A stretch of DNA of 64,000 nt from Hellea sp. (GTDB taxonomy: Bacteria; Pseudomonadota; Alphaproteobacteria; Caulobacterales; Maricaulaceae), in assembly GCA_029250925.1 (NCBI GenBank), contig JAQXEH010000052.1:62001-126000 (forward strand), written 5' to 3'. The position numbers and the translations under genes are program-made. Below the pieces are notes generated by a model. It saw only the letters and a program-made list of their open reading frames with translations. It was not told the origin of the DNA and did not search any database. Positions 6,529 through 60,768 of this stretch are shown piece by piece (position 1 is the stretch's first letter; each line of letters opens with the position of its first letter).

Positions 6529-6987
6529 CTATTTTTCCAAAGAGTATCCAGACCAAGCCTTAACGGTTTTCATTACGAGTGAACTTTCAATTCTGCTAAC
6601 ATGTGGCAGACTAGCAATAATACGTTTGTAAATTTGTTCATAACTTTTGGTGTCCTTAGCTGCAACTTTGACGAGGTAATCAGCAGAACCAGTCGTAAGG
6701 TAACACTCTAAAACCTCAGGCCGCTCCAAGGCTGCTTTTTCAAAGCTTGCCAAAGTTTTATCCGATTGATTCTCCAATGATACTTCAACAAAGAAAATCA
6801 TCGAGTAACCTAACTTCTCACCATTCAAAGAAGCTGTATATTTTTCAATCAGACCCTCTTGCTCTAAAATACCGATACGTCGATGAGTTGCCGATGTTGA
6901 TAAGCCAACTAGATTACCTAAATCTGATATCGATAACCTGCAATTATCTTGTAGATTCCAAAGTATTTTTCTATCTATTTTATCCAT
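6529..6987 (-). CDS. Lrp/AsnC-family regulator, probably of alanine dehydrogenase
   Basis: An Lrp/AsnC-type transcription factor with an N-terminal winged helix-turn-helix (about residues 3-60, LSISDLGNLVGLSTSATHRRI) and a C-terminal RAM ligand-binding domain with the GSADYLVKV motif. I chose the ATG at 6987, giving the family-typical start MDKIDRKIL; an upstream start at 7023 would add 12 residues unlike the family. It is divergent from ald, and regulators of this type next to alanine dehydrogenase are known to control it in response to amino acids (for example AldR in actinobacteria). The intergenic DNA is very A+T-rich. Confidence 0.88.
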   Translation of the reverse strand: MDKIDRKILWNLQDNCRLSISDLGNLVGLSTSATHRRIGILEQEGLIEKYTASLNGEKLGYSMIFFVEVSLENQSDKTLASFEKAALERPEVLECYLTTGSADYLVKVAAKDTKSYEQIYKRIIASLPHVSRIESSLVMKTVKAWSGYSLEK

Positions 6988-7113
6988 AATAGAATTATTT
7001 TCATAAAAAAATCTATTATTCAATATAATATTCTATCTTTTTTTATAATTTGAATAATTATCGTAAACAATATTATTAAGTGTCTGCTAATTGTTGTTCA
7101 AAAGGAAACAAAC

Positions 7114-30711: not shown

Positions 30712-30782
30712 ACTGCGCATTTTTCAATGGTAATAAATACGCAAAATCAAGTTTTTATGTAAAATTTTGTCGCATTTGCGTA
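30712..30782 (-). promoter_or_regulatory. Tripartite 71-bp element, copy A (hsaA operon)
   Basis: Read toward hsaA: TACGCAAA (30782-30775), 29 bp, TTTGCGTA (30745-30738), 18 bp, TGCGCAGT (30719-30712). The second half-site runs into TATTTA, a plausible -10 hexamer. The element starts 35 bp upstream of the hsaA ATG and would control the whole 20-gene operon. Confidence 0.8.
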
Positions 30783-32327: not shown

Positions 32328-32398
32328 TACGCAATTATAGAGTTTTACTATACAAACCAATGATTTTGCGCAACATAAGACACAAAATATTACGCAGG
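32328..32398 (+). promoter_or_regulatory. Tripartite 71-bp element, copy B (SDR operon / fadD3)
   Basis: TACGCAAT (32328-32335), 29 bp, TTTGCGCA (32365-32372), 18 bp, TACGCAGG (32391-32398). It fills most of the divergent gap between fadD3 and the SDR gene; the third half-site ends 6 bp before the ATG at 32405. The orientation points to the plus-strand operon, but the first half-site lies only 14 bp before the fadD3 ATG, so both directions could be controlled. Confidence 0.8.
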
Positions 32399-38264: not shown

Positions 38265-38335
38265 TACGCAATTTACTCTATTCTTTTGACTTGTAACTTA
38301 TTTTGCGTATTTTATCAGCATGTTTACTACGCAAA
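38265..38335 (+). promoter_or_regulatory. Tripartite 71-bp element, copy C (hsaB operon)
   Basis: TACGCAAT (38265-38272), 29 bp, TTTGCGTA (38302-38309), 18 bp, TACGCAAA (38328-38335). A sigma70-like pair, TTGACT (38286-38291) and TATTTT (38308-38313), lies between, so the second half-site overlaps the spacer and -10. The third half-site ends 6 bp before the ATG at 38342, the same distance as in copy B. Confidence 0.82.
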
Positions 38336-38341
38336 TGTATA

Positions 38342-39292
38342 ATGTCCAAGATTAATCCAAATAATTTTCGTAATGCACTCGGTCAATTTGCGACTGGTGT
38401 TACTATAGTTACTACGATTGACGATAATAACCTTCCTGTCGGCGTGACTGCAAGCAGCTTTAATTCTGTTTCTCTAGATCCTCCTTTAGTTCTATGGTCA
38501 TTATCAAAGAATGCAAAGTCTATGCCCGCTTATCAGAATTCTGGTGGCTTTAATGTACATGTTCTCGCTAGTCATCAAATGGATTTATCCAATAAATTCG
38601 CACGTTCTACAGAGGACAAATTTGAAAATGTGGAGTGGGATTCCTGCGAAGAGGGCATACCTGTTTTAGCAGAATACGCTGCTCTATTTAGGTGTAAAAC
38701 TAATTTTCAATACGAAGGTGGAGACCATATCATCTTTGTTGGAGAGGTAATAAGTTACGAAACCAATAATTTACCAGTTCTAGTTTTTCACGCTGGGAAA
38801 TACGCAGATGCGAAACAAAAGTCTGTTAAAGCTGAACCAATCTTAGCAGGTATTGACCTTGGGTTAGGGCAGTTTTCAAACGATTTCTTATTATATTTAT
38901 TATCTAGAGCACATTTTCAAACAAGCTACCCTGTTAGAAAAGAATGTTTAAGAATGGGGGTTAGTGAACCGGAATATTTTTGTTTGTCATTACTTTCTAT
39001 GAGCGGACCAATATCTAGAAAAGATACAATCAGTCGTTTAGAGCACACGGGTCATCACCCTGACTCTGAAATATTTGCGAGGCTAGAACGAAAAAAATAT
39101 ATTGATTCAAACAATAATGACATAACTATTTCAAAAAAAGGCCGTGAAGTTTTTATTAGTATTCTAGCTCAATCTAAAGCTCTTGAAGAGCAACTTCTTA
39201 AACATTTTTCAAATGATGAGCTGTTAGAAGCTAACAACTTTCTTAAAAAATTAATTAAAATTACTGGATCAGACATTCCAGAGCTATGGTAG
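38342..39292 (+). CDS. hsaB: HsaB flavin reductase fused to a MarR-like winged helix
   Basis: A 316-residue two-domain protein. Residues about 5-165 are a flavin reductase domain (NNFRNALGQFATGVTIVTT, NSVSLDPPLVLWSLS, EGGDHIIFVGEVISY) that would supply reduced flavin to HsaA. Residues about 185-310 form a winged-helix domain resembling MarR (FLLYLLSRAHFQTS, ISRKDTISRLEHTGHHPDSEIFARLERKKYID). The same size and order occur in C1, the reductase of Acinetobacter p-hydroxyphenylacetate hydroxylase, where the MarR-like part senses the phenolic substrate and controls reductase activity. The ATG at 38342 is chosen by family alignment; no clear Shine-Dalgarno is visible. Confidence 0.85.
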   Translation: MSKINPNNFRNALGQFATGVTIVTTIDDNNLPVGVTASSFNSVSLDPPLVLWSLSKNAKSMPAYQNSGGFNVHVLASHQMDLSNKFARSTEDKFENVEWDSCEEGIPVLAEYAALFRCKTNFQYEGGDHIIFVGEVISYETNNLPVLVFHAGKYADAKQKSVKAEPILAGIDLGLGQFSNDFLLYLLSRAHFQTSYPVRKECLRMGVSEPEYFCLSLLSMSGPISRKDTISRLEHTGHHPDSEIFARLERKKYIDSNNNDITISKKGREVFISILAQSKALEEQLLKHFSNDELLEANNFLKKLIKITGSDIPELW

Positions 39293-44325: not shown

Positions 44326-44396
44326 AATGCGCAATAATTTTGTCATAATTTTACGTATTCTAAGAAAAAATAGGTCATTTTACTTGATTTTGCGTA
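44326..44396 (-). promoter_or_regulatory. Tripartite 71-bp element, copy D (SDR operon / KstD-like gene)
   Basis: Read toward the minus-strand SDR operon: TACGCAAA (44396-44389), 29 bp, AATACGTA (44359-44352), 18 bp, TGCGCATT (44333-44326). The middle half-site is degenerate, but both spacings are exact. The other end lies 44 bp before the ATG of the KstD-like gene at 44441, so both divergent units may respond. Confidence 0.75.
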
Positions 44397-48239: not shown

Positions 48240-48275
48240 AATCTTAACCAATTCGTTTTAAAATCATCTTATTAC

Positions 48276-48345
48276 TACGAATCCTTAACAATTTTGAAAG
48301 ATTTTATTTCATATTCGTAAGAAATTAAGCTAAACTATACGCATG
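48276..48345 (+). promoter_or_regulatory. Tripartite element, copy G (SDR / DUF1214-like operon)
   Basis: TACGAATC (48276-48283), 28 bp, TATTCGTA (48312-48319), 18 bp, TACGCATG (48338-48345). This is the most degenerate copy and one base shorter (70 bp), but half-site order and the 18-bp spacing hold. The third half-site overlaps the ATG at 48343. The first half-site is 36 bp upstream of the sulfotransferase ATG on the other strand. Confidence 0.6.
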
Positions 48346-51597: not shown

Positions 51598-52080
51598 CTA
51601 AAGTTTCTCTGATTGTGGTGTAACAATCTTTGCCACTCTGTTGTCATATTTGACAACATCTACAACAACAGAAGTCTCAACTAAACGAACTCCTTCAAAA
51701 TCTAATATTTTATTACTAGCCACCTGATGAACCTCAGAGAGACCTTCAAACAATCCTATTGCCAATATGTCAAAACGTCCTAATAAAATTATCACACCAT
51801 TAATTTCCGGAAGGTTAGCTATTCTTTCTGCTACCTTCTTAATTGAATTCTGCTCAGCATGTATACCTATGTATGCAAGTTGAGGTGTATCAAGATTGGA
51901 CATATTGGTGACTGCCGTAAAACGAATATAATTTTCGTCTTCCAGCCTTTTCACGCGTGAGCGAATGGTACCTTCAGTAAACCCAAGTTGAGTTGCTATT
52001 TTCCGGTTTGAAAGACGTGCATCAGTGGATAATAACTGAATTATTTTCTGATCTAGGTCATCAATTTTATAACTTGTCAT
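51598..52080 (-). CDS. AsnC/Lrp-family regulator (second of a tandem pair)
   Basis: A 160-residue AsnC/Lrp regulator: N-terminal winged helix (DLDQKIIQLLSTDARLSNRKIATQLGFTEGTIRSRVKRLEDENYI) and C-terminal RAM domain with LLGRFDILAIGLFE at the ligand-loop position. It follows another AsnC-type gene by 9 bp. The paralogues differ clearly, so they may respond to different ligands or form mixed octamers. With element F upstream of the pair, it is a candidate regulator of the catabolic genes. No other dedicated transcription factor apart from the winged-helix part of HsaB is seen between 10 kb and the right edge. Confidence 0.9.
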   Translation of the reverse strand: MTSYKIDDLDQKIIQLLSTDARLSNRKIATQLGFTEGTIRSRVKRLEDENYIRFTAVTNMSNLDTPQLAYIGIHAEQNSIKKVAERIANLPEINGVIILLGRFDILAIGLFEGLSEVHQVASNKILDFEGVRLVETSVVVDVVKYDNRVAKIVTPQSEKL

Positions 52081-52089
52081 TTATACCTC

Positions 52090-52554
52090 TTAAATGGGTG
52101 CCACATCAAAATCATACTTAATTATATCAACAGCAAAGCTAGGGTCTAGGCTTCTCACACCCTTTATTTGAGATAGTTTATTTAGTAAAAAATCTGACAT
52201 TTTATCCATACTGGATAATGTTACTAAGATTTCTATGTCATGCTTACCCGTTACAAGCTGCACCGAGGCAACCTCCGATAATAAAGCAATGTCTGCAGCC
52301 ACATCATTTGCGCGCCTTCCCTTAACATCAACACCAATTGGCAATAAAACATTGTAATCAAATGCAGAAAAATCTGAAACCGCAACAACCTTCATCGCTT
52401 TTGATTGTTCCATGCGTCGTATTCGTGTTGTAACCATTGAAGTTGTAACACCTAGTTGATCAGCAATTTTTTGGTTACTGGTTCGTCCATCTTTCTTGAG
52501 AATTTTTATTATAGCATTATCTAAGTCACTAAATTGGAAATTATTATCAGACAT
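52090..52554 (-). CDS. AsnC/Lrp-family regulator (first of a tandem pair)
   Basis: A 154-residue AsnC/Lrp regulator: FSDLDNAIIKILKKDGRTSNQKIADQLGVTTSMVTTRIRRME is the DNA-binding domain, and LVTGKHDIEILVTLSSMDKM the RAM domain. Family proteins form dimers to octamers that wrap DNA around repeated half-sites. It is the promoter-proximal gene of the pair; element F lies 83 bp upstream and points toward it, consistent with the autoregulation common in the family. Divergent from the GMC oxidoreductase. Confidence 0.9.
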   Translation of the reverse strand: MSDNNFQFSDLDNAIIKILKKDGRTSNQKIADQLGVTTSMVTTRIRRMEQSKAMKVVAVSDFSAFDYNVLLPIGVDVKGRRANDVAADIALLSEVASVQLVTGKHDIEILVTLSSMDKMSDFLLNKLSQIKGVRSLDPSFAVDIIKYDFDVAPI

Positions 52555-52637
52555 TACATTCCTTATTTTACTTGTTCAAACATTCCAATACATGGTAGCC
52601 TTTGTTAGCTTATAGATAATAAGTTATAAAATGCAAT

Positions 52638-52708
52638 ATTGCGTATATTTTTGTATCTTTTCCTCTGCAAACGTATAAATTTGTGTCATGTTTTTCTTAA
52701 AATGCGTA
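52638..52708 (-). promoter_or_regulatory. Tripartite 71-bp element, copy F (AsnC genes / GMC oxidoreductase)
   Basis: Read toward the AsnC-type genes: TACGCATT (52708-52701), 29 bp, TTTGCAGA (52671-52664), 18 bp, TACGCAAT (52645-52638). Both spacings are exact; the middle half-site is degenerate. The first half-site overlaps the ATG of the GMC oxidoreductase at 52702, so binding would directly affect that gene too. Confidence 0.75.
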
Positions 52709-54327
52709 ATTTAGTGATTAAAGAATTTGATTATATTATTGTAGGAGCAGGTTCAGCTGGGTGTGTTTTAGCTAATAGACTTAGTAAAAATCCTAATATT
52801 AAAGTTGCTTTGGTAGAAGCAGGTGGCGTCGATATCGATCCATCAATACATATGCCCATTGGGTATGGAAAAACCCTTCATAACCCAAAGCTTTCATGGA
52901 GTCTTAAGACTCAGCCAGAGCCCTTAATGAATGATCGAATTCTACCATTGCCACGCGGAAAAGTGTTAGGTGGTTCAAGTTCAATAAATGGAATGATTTA
53001 TATTCGTGGACATAAGGAGGATTATAACACTTGGGCTAACTTAGGCTGCAATGGATGGGGTTGGGAAGACATTTTACCTTATTTTAAAAAATCAGAAAAC
53101 TACAAATTAGGTAAAAATAGATATCATGGAGGAGATGGTCCTTTAGCCGTTTCAGAAATTATTGATAAAAATCCAACTAATGACTCAATTATAAAAGCAT
53201 TCACAGAATACGGCGTTACAGAAAATAAAGACTTTAATGGCGATAGCCAAGAAGGTGTGGGGCATTATGATGTAAATATAAAAGATGGCAAAAGGTGCTC
53301 TACTTCAAGTGCTTTTTTGCGACCCGTTAGAAAAAGAAAAAATCTTTCTATTCTCACGAATACAAATGTAAAAAAAATAATTTTCGAGAACAATCGCGCG
53401 AAAAGTTTAATGGTTGATAGTCGAAAAAAAATTGAAATACTAAAAGCGAATAGAGAAATTATTCTTAGTGCTGGTACTTACAAAACCCCTCAACTTTTGC
53501 AATTATCAGGTATTGGCCCAGCTAAACTTCTAAAGTCAGTTGGTATTAAAGTCTTGGTTAATAGTACAGAAGTTGGAAAAAATCTTCAAGATCACTATAT
53601 GGCGCCAATGGCTTGGTCACTTAAACCAGGAGTATTCAGTTATAATAATGAACTAAAAAACTTAAATTTATTAAAAAATATAATAAGATATTACTTTTTT
53701 CGAAAAGGCCCAATGACTATACCTGCAGCATCAGTAGGGGCATTTGTAAAAAGCAATCAAAGCTTAGACCGTCCTGATTTACAATTTCATTGCTTAGCAG
53801 TAACCGGTGACCTTTCAGCCGCAAGTAGAGGAGAAAATGCAGAATTAACTGAGTATTCAGGAGTTACTATAGGTGGAGCTCAGCTACGGCCAGAGTCCCG
53901 TGGATTTGTAAAATGTGCATCAAATAATCCCTTAGACGACCCTTTGATTATTCATAATTATTTATCTGCCGAAATGGATAGACATTTAATAATAAAAGCA
54001 ATGGATATAACTAGAGAGCTGGCAAAAATGCCAGCACTTTCCAAAATAATTGACAAAGAAAAACTTCCCGGACGCCAAGTTGTTTCCAATGATGAAAAAA
54101 TAGAATGGCAATTAAATCTTGGAACCACCATGTATCACCCCGTTGGAACCTGTAGAATGGGCAGCGACATCCATGCTGTGGTAGACACGGACCTTCGGGT
54201 TAATGGGGTGGATGGCTTACGAGTTATTGATGCCTCGATCATGCCGAGACTTATTTCCGGCAATACGAATGCAGCTACTGTAGCAATAGCTGAAAAAGGT
54301 GCTGACTTAATAACTAGTCAGAAGTAA
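52702..54327 (+). CDS. GMC-family FAD oxidoreductase
   Basis: A 541-residue choline dehydrogenase-like GMC oxidoreductase. FAD-binding YIIVGAGSAGCVLANRLS at the N-terminus, the GMC signature LPLPRGKVLGGSSSINGMIYIRG, the second signature SAGTYKTPQLLQLSGIGP, and the catalytic histidine region YHPVGTCRMGS with the final DASIMPRLISGNTNAATVAIAEKGADL. The family oxidises alcohols; substrates range from choline to long-chain and sterol alcohols. I chose the ATG at 52702; the upstream extension from a TTG lacks similarity. The start lies inside element F, placing it in the same regulon. Confidence 0.87.
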   Translation: MRNLVIKEFDYIIVGAGSAGCVLANRLSKNPNIKVALVEAGGVDIDPSIHMPIGYGKTLHNPKLSWSLKTQPEPLMNDRILPLPRGKVLGGSSSINGMIYIRGHKEDYNTWANLGCNGWGWEDILPYFKKSENYKLGKNRYHGGDGPLAVSEIIDKNPTNDSIIKAFTEYGVTENKDFNGDSQEGVGHYDVNIKDGKRCSTSSAFLRPVRKRKNLSILTNTNVKKIIFENNRAKSLMVDSRKKIEILKANREIILSAGTYKTPQLLQLSGIGPAKLLKSVGIKVLVNSTEVGKNLQDHYMAPMAWSLKPGVFSYNNELKNLNLLKNIIRYYFFRKGPMTIPAASVGAFVKSNQSLDRPDLQFHCLAVTGDLSAASRGENAELTEYSGVTIGGAQLRPESRGFVKCASNNPLDDPLIIHNYLSAEMDRHLIIKAMDITRELAKMPALSKIIDKEKLPGRQVVSNDEKIEWQLNLGTTMYHPVGTCRMGSDIHAVVDTDLRVNGVDGLRVIDASIMPRLISGNTNAATVAIAEKGADLITSQK

Positions 54328-60697: not shown

Positions 60698-60768
60698 TAC
60701 GCATTATTGATAATCAACATGGCTTTTCAACAGAATTGCGTATTTTTTATGTTTATTTTCTACGCATT
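60698..60768 (+). promoter_or_regulatory. Tripartite 71-bp element, copy E (SDR pair / kshA operon)
   Basis: TACGCATT (60698-60705), 29 bp, ATTGCGTA (60735-60742), 18 bp, TACGCATT (60761-60768); an extra TACGCA half-site follows at 60783-60788. A TATTTT hexamer at 60741-60746 overlaps the second half-site, as in copy C. The third half-site ends 35 bp before the ATG at 60804, the same distance as in copy A. The other divergent gene is the CoA ligase of the kshA operon. Confidence 0.82.

Follow-up and report, generated by a model that had tools for sequence, protein, structure and literature searches.

We know of no regulator of steroid degradation in most of the Alphaproteobacteria that carry out this process, and the locus described here raises the question of whether two adjacent AsnC/Lrp genes in a steroid cluster encode one. 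Steroid degradation by Alphaproteobacteria occurs in the sea, in soil, and in other habitats (PMC5790920). The stretch of DNA analyzed, referred to below as the window, is 64,000 nucleotides long and corresponds to C19:62001-126000 of a Hellea MAG (1.84 Mb in 88 contigs). Our answer, which is read from sequence and held with considerable confidence, is that the two proteins very probably act as dedicated local regulators of a 9,10-seco steroid regulon by way of a repeated DNA element.

The regulator pair and its surroundings

The first gene of the pair, asnC1 (52090..52554, minus strand), is followed in the same operon, after a 9-bp gap, by the second, asnC2 (51598..52080, minus strand). The earlier note had described two adjacent AsnC/Lrp paralogues, and this was borne out: both open reading frames exist, and each protein contains the AsnC helix-turn-helix (HTH) domain PF13404 (E 3.9e-14 and 1.5e-11) and the Lrp/AsnC ligand-binding (RAM) domain PF01037 (E 6.9e-11 and 2.2e-12), all above Pfam cut-offs. 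In the asnC1 product, the HTH occupies approximately residues 10-50 and the ligand-binding domain residues 73-142. The two proteins are about 34% identical to each other. None of the named Lrp/AsnC equivalogs (AsnC, Lrp, LrpA, LysM, and ChrS) matched either one, with best scores of 57-63 bits against NCBIfam cut-offs of 180-250. The best PDB sequence matches of both were PH0140 of P. horikoshii (9w4v) and the 7fby regulator (E ~1e-18 to 6e-18), and the PDB records of these two state no steroid link. Siroheme-decarboxylase-like enzymes have an AsnC-type fold without a regulatory function. This assignment was set aside for the pair on the basis of domain matches only, as both proteins match ordinary AsnC HTH and ligand domains.

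The 9,10-seco steroid cluster in the window includes hsaA, hsaC, hsaD, hsaE/F/G-type genes, KshA, and a KstD-like flavoprotein, as identified with Pfam and by tblastn against the clusters of relatives. Among the other main open reading frames from 10 kb to the right edge, Pfam identified enzymes and transporters (SDRs, acyl-CoA dehydrogenases, a thiolase, ligases, and an MFS protein) and unassigned domains. No DNA-binding regulator beyond the pair was identified when the main open reading frames between 10 kb and 64 kb were scanned with Pfam. The pair had been proposed as the only transcription factors to the right of 10 kb apart from a winged-helix part of HsaB; the former stands for the reading frames scanned, and ORF 38303-39292, the HsaB of the note, matched a flavin-reductase domain only. 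A third AsnC/Lrp gene lies to the left of 10 kb (6529-7023, minus strand), beside an alanine dehydrogenase, and probably encodes a conventional amino-acid regulator with no connection to the element. Besides the pair, there are four AsnC/Lrp genes in this genome.

Architecture of the element

The element has the plan TACGCA-N33-TGCGTA-N18-TACGCA, in which three short points are separated by fixed spacers. It had been described as a 71-bp three-point operator; the three points were confirmed, and the length is 69 bp from core to core, with 71 bp obtained by counting one flanking base per side. A generic search for repeats picked up a single pair of copies, and the others required a spaced pattern. 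Seven copies were found in the window, five of which match all 18 of the specified core bases (TRCGYA three times). In dinucleotide shuffles of the window, 0.017 sites per window were expected at 16/18 and none at higher scores. Perfect TRCGYA hexamers in the window showed no repeated spacings within 120 bp other than 24, 39, and 63.

In an alignment of non-redundant elements, the orientation of the points alternates (TACGCA, its reverse complement, and T[AG]CGCA), and the points are not symmetric. The two spacings of 24 and 39 bp have a mean of 31.5 bp, about three helical turns, and sum to 63 bp. The outer points are therefore about six turns apart, and the middle point is off phase. Variants with 38/24 and 40/24 spacing also occur. 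When a symmetric fourth point was sought 23-24 bp beyond point 1, the mean match was 3.12/6, compared to 2.45 (sd 0.21) for other offsets; there may therefore be a degenerate fourth point, albeit a weak one.

The copies lie at promoters of the steroid genes. Element A (30714..30782, minus strand) is upstream of the hsaA operon, which runs leftward from 30676. Element B (32328..32396, plus strand) and element G (60698..60766, plus strand) are each located between an acyl-CoA ligase on the minus strand and an SDR operon on the plus strand, element C (38265..38333, plus strand) is upstream of the flavin reductase (HsaB-type) operon, and element D (44328..44396, minus strand) is between an SDR (minus) and the KstD-like flavoprotein (plus). 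Each of these five scores 18/18. Element C has a TTGACT -35-like box between points 1 and 2, and TTGAC is kept in aligned relatives. Element E (48275..48343, plus strand), between a sulfotransferase (minus) and an SDR operon (plus), combines a degenerate first point with a perfect TGCGTA-N18-TACGAA site (G000:C19:110314) as its 24-bp half. The seventh copy, element F, lies at the pair and is described below.

At least four further copies were found outside the window in this MAG, at steroid or TonB-receptor promoters. One precedes a ketosteroid dehydrogenase-like gene (C76:20021), one a TonB receptor (C76:29399), and one, with a weak first point, an acyl-CoA ligase (C19:127325); the fourth, a perfect copy with 38/24 spacing (C84:68861-68928), immediately precedes a TonB-dependent receptor distant from the cluster. 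Judged by element position, the predicted regulon comprises the hsaA operon, SDR and ligase operons, KstD, and TonB receptors. The 38/24 variant was also seen at TonB receptors in G198 and G375, which suggests a spacing class tied to uptake genes. The right ends of C19 and C76 are both close to a copy of the element, so these two contigs may be separated by an assembly gap that the steroid cluster spans. At C76:1-9000, a large TonB-receptor-like open reading frame is flanked by several flavoprotein genes whose N-termini, inspected by eye, resemble those of tryptophan halogenases.

The element upstream of the pair

Element F (52640..52708, minus strand; 39/24 spacing) scores 16/18 with a degenerate middle point and is a candidate operator of both the asnC pair and the divergent GMC oxidoreductase (52639..54327, plus strand; PF00732/PF05199). 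The likely start codon of the oxidoreductase, read from the sequence at about 52702, overlaps point 1. The 24-bp-spaced end faces asnC, whose start is 85 bp downstream. A consensus scan of element F detected neither a promoter nor a terminator, so the repressive geometry discussed below rests on other copies.

The claim that this copy lies upstream of the pair and is oriented toward it extended to relatives. An element is located directly upstream of the pair in this MAG and in G272, G348, G153, G078, G252, G333, and G330, and in all eight the 24-bp side points to the pair, while the upstream neighbor gene of the pair differs among these genomes. Counterparts of element F upstream of most orthologous pairs are perfect or near-perfect. 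The pair is apparently inside a longer operon in G198 and IMCC14465, with the element at the first promoter, and G375 looks alike. All relatives in the order sample that have this side of the pair on the contig carry an element either immediately 5' of the pair or at the start of the operon that contains it. These arrangements are consistent with autoregulation by the pair at its own promoter, as is usual in the Lrp/AsnC family.

Co-occurrence of the pair and the element in the order

The sample of the order consisted of 398 genomes, which are related and include several incomplete MAGs. The perfect three-point pattern was present in four to six copies in 10 of the 398, and a reversed control pattern had no hits in those ten. 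In every one of these 10 multi-copy genomes, the two AsnC genes are present side by side, in unchanged order and with 66-98% identity. G375 is the only other carrier of the pair, the eleventh; of its copies of the element, one is perfect at 38/24 and one scores 16/18 at 39/24. The co-occurrence has a Fisher P of ~4e-19, a value that is inflated by shared descent. Across the other 10 pair-carrying genomes of this sample, asnC1 orthologues are 68-98% identical, and in all genomes examined asnC2 adjoins asnC1 with constant gene order. The genome of Hellea balneolensis DSM 19091 carries the pair and elements. Relatives that lack the cluster, including G267 of the same genus, have neither the pair nor three-point elements. 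Lone perfect hits in G111 and G293, which belong to other families, were set aside as chance; each is a single copy with GC-rich spacers in a genome with no closely related pair.

Distant lineages and clusters that lack the pair

Distant pairs, at 35-70% identity, were found with hsa genes in other families and orders. The combination is present in G180, G304, G371, G641, G720, and IMCC14465 (PS1 clade), and on the Sphingomonadales plasmids pNL2 (Novosphingobium aromaticivorans), pMSHV (Sphingobium herbicidovorans), and pP6W1. The EGTIRxR recognition helix of asnC2 is kept in nearly all distant relatives, with EGAIRAR in G180b.

When the 24-spaced pattern was searched genome-wide with one mismatch, the count was at or below that of the reversed control, and only exact hits or promoter-restricted scores were therefore used. 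On this basis, TGCGTA-N18-TACGMA or a one-base variant (11-12/12) was found upstream of hsaA in 11 of the 12 pair-positive lineages scored. The twelfth, IMCC14465, has an 11/12 match upstream of hsaA at a spacing of 23. A three-point element of 16/18 with 39/24 spacing lies upstream of the pair on pNL2. Conservation of the full three-point form is best among same-family relatives and in the PS1 clade, and what distant lineages mostly retain is the 24-bp half. No clear element was found at the distant pair of G152 or at that of L203, the latter examined with 10-kb flanks only.

Complete hsa clusters that lack the pair (G248, G519, and G622) contained no exact element, and their best 24-spaced match within 300 bp upstream of hsaA was 7-8/12, which is background level. 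A Fisher test on steroid clusters, which ignores shared descent and leaves out L203, gave P = 0.003.

Around a single steroid-type cluster in G180 (C6:2785001-2845000) lie two distinct AsnC pairs together with two hsaC-like genes, and TGCGTA-N18-TACGAA is repeated there at several promoters. This locus offers a chance to study how the specificity of the pair diverged.

Proposed mechanism and alternative explanations

The pair had been put forward as the masters of the regulon. Support for this role comes from its co-occurrence with the element, which tracks the pair through changed neighborhoods and whose 24-bp-spaced core recurs at the hsaA promoters of distant lineages with the pair. Co-occurrence alone cannot separate a regulator from a passenger, and another possible explanation is that the element is bound by a regulator encoded elsewhere and co-inherited with the cluster, with the pair being a mere member of the regulon that senses amino acids or side metabolites. 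The genome has its four other AsnC/Lrp genes, and other regulator families were surveyed within the window. However, the pair is the constant companion of the hsaA element in distant lineages where clusters are rearranged or split, and the clusters that lack the pair also lack the element; we consider an outside regulator unlikely. That the element is a dispersed repeat or a structural DNA feature without any regulator is very improbable. It does occur in multiple copies with palindromic points, but only the points and their spacing are conserved while the spacers diverge, and the copies lie at promoters, are kept at orthologous positions, and co-occur with the pair.

Regulation by the pair would most simply proceed as follows. 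The two proteins would bind the element as a higher-order assembly, in which the promoter could be wrapped by three or four dimers. As long as no substrate is present, this assembly would exclude RNA polymerase and repress the catabolic operons together with the operon of the pair itself. A steroid-derived ligand bound in the RAM domains would relieve the repression; from the nature of the regulon, our guess is an acid or a CoA ester. A repressor that wraps the promoter is the favored reading because the distance between point 3 and the start codon is 0-45 bp for six of the window's seven copies and because the -10 predicted from the TTGACT box of element C would overlap point 2. The geometry of the element, 63 bp in total, is compatible with wrapping around an octamer. 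A mixed assembly of both paralogues is likely, given that the two unequal proteins are kept together and that the recognition helix of asnC2 is kept in distant relatives.

The pair could instead bind the element as activators, or play a dual role in which it represses itself and activates the catabolic operons when ligand is present. Lrp-type proteins can do either, and BarR represses its own gene and activates a divergent one from a shared region (PMC10201364). Most of the elements described here also lie between divergent genes. The positions of point 3 and of point 2 in element C suit exclusion of RNA polymerase better, and activation or dual control is thus a less probable, though serious, alternative to repression.

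If the pair does regulate through the element, a regulator pair with a readable operator would allow the regulon to be predicted from sequence alone, and the operator would mark which of the scattered TonB receptors and dehydrogenases serve steroid uptake and breakdown. The pair and its operator could also supply parts for a steroid biosensor. With an operator that alternates in spacing and two paralogues that always occur together, the system also allows mixed Lrp-type assemblies to be tested directly in cultured Hellea balneolensis DSM 19091. A broader proposal, held tentatively and with slightly more doubt than belief, is that this is a widespread alphaproteobacterial system in which an obligate mixed AsnC/Lrp assembly on an alternating 39/24 operator with opposed points senses a steroid ring-degradation intermediate and not an amino acid.

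Comparison with known systems

Local control of steroid catabolism is also found with KstR and KstR2 (TetR family, actinobacteria), TesR and TeiR (Comamonas), and EdcR (Caenibius), but these regulators and their operators differ from the Hellea pair and element. Of these, KstR and KstR2 act as repressors and respond to intermediates of the pathway (PMC6678751). A 2019 review names no AsnC/Lrp regulator of steroid degradation (PMC6678751). A close parallel is the bile-salt cluster of Sphingobium sp. Chol11, which contains the contiguous Lrp/AsnC genes NCHOL11_RS15865/RS15860, for which a role in amino-acid metabolism was suggested (PMC12882949, 2026). Like the Hellea pair, these are two contiguous AsnC/Lrp genes in an alphaproteobacterial steroid cluster, a likeness drawn from their description and not from sequence comparison. 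That paper notes the presence of the genes only and gives no operator, regulon, or conservation (PMC12882949). The expectation that AsnC control of a steroid regulon would be new therefore stands for the operator and the regulon, whereas a pair of this kind had already been noted in Chol11. In the literature searched, the regulator family is known, and the system, its operator, and its breadth appear to be undescribed.

Within that family, E. coli Lrp, AsnC, and the archaeal BarR have the same two domains as the pair. Regulators of the Lrp type control their own genes, bind at multiple phased sites, and can have DNA wrapped around an octamer (PMC2995911, PMC10201364). Their dimers contact semipalindromic sites of ~15 bp, and the usual distance between site centers is two or three whole turns (PMC10201364, PMC2995911), and FL11 with DM1 is a precedent for a hetero-octamer (PMC2995911). 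BarR binds between divergent genes at sites with two different spacings, as is the case for this element, and its authors regarded two spacings within one Lrp-DNA complex as new at the time (PMC10201364). In contrast to Lrp, AsnC, and BarR, the Hellea system consists of two unequal paralogues that are always co-inherited and has a steroid catabolic target, and its operator repeats a fixed, alternating 39/24 spacing at many promoters.
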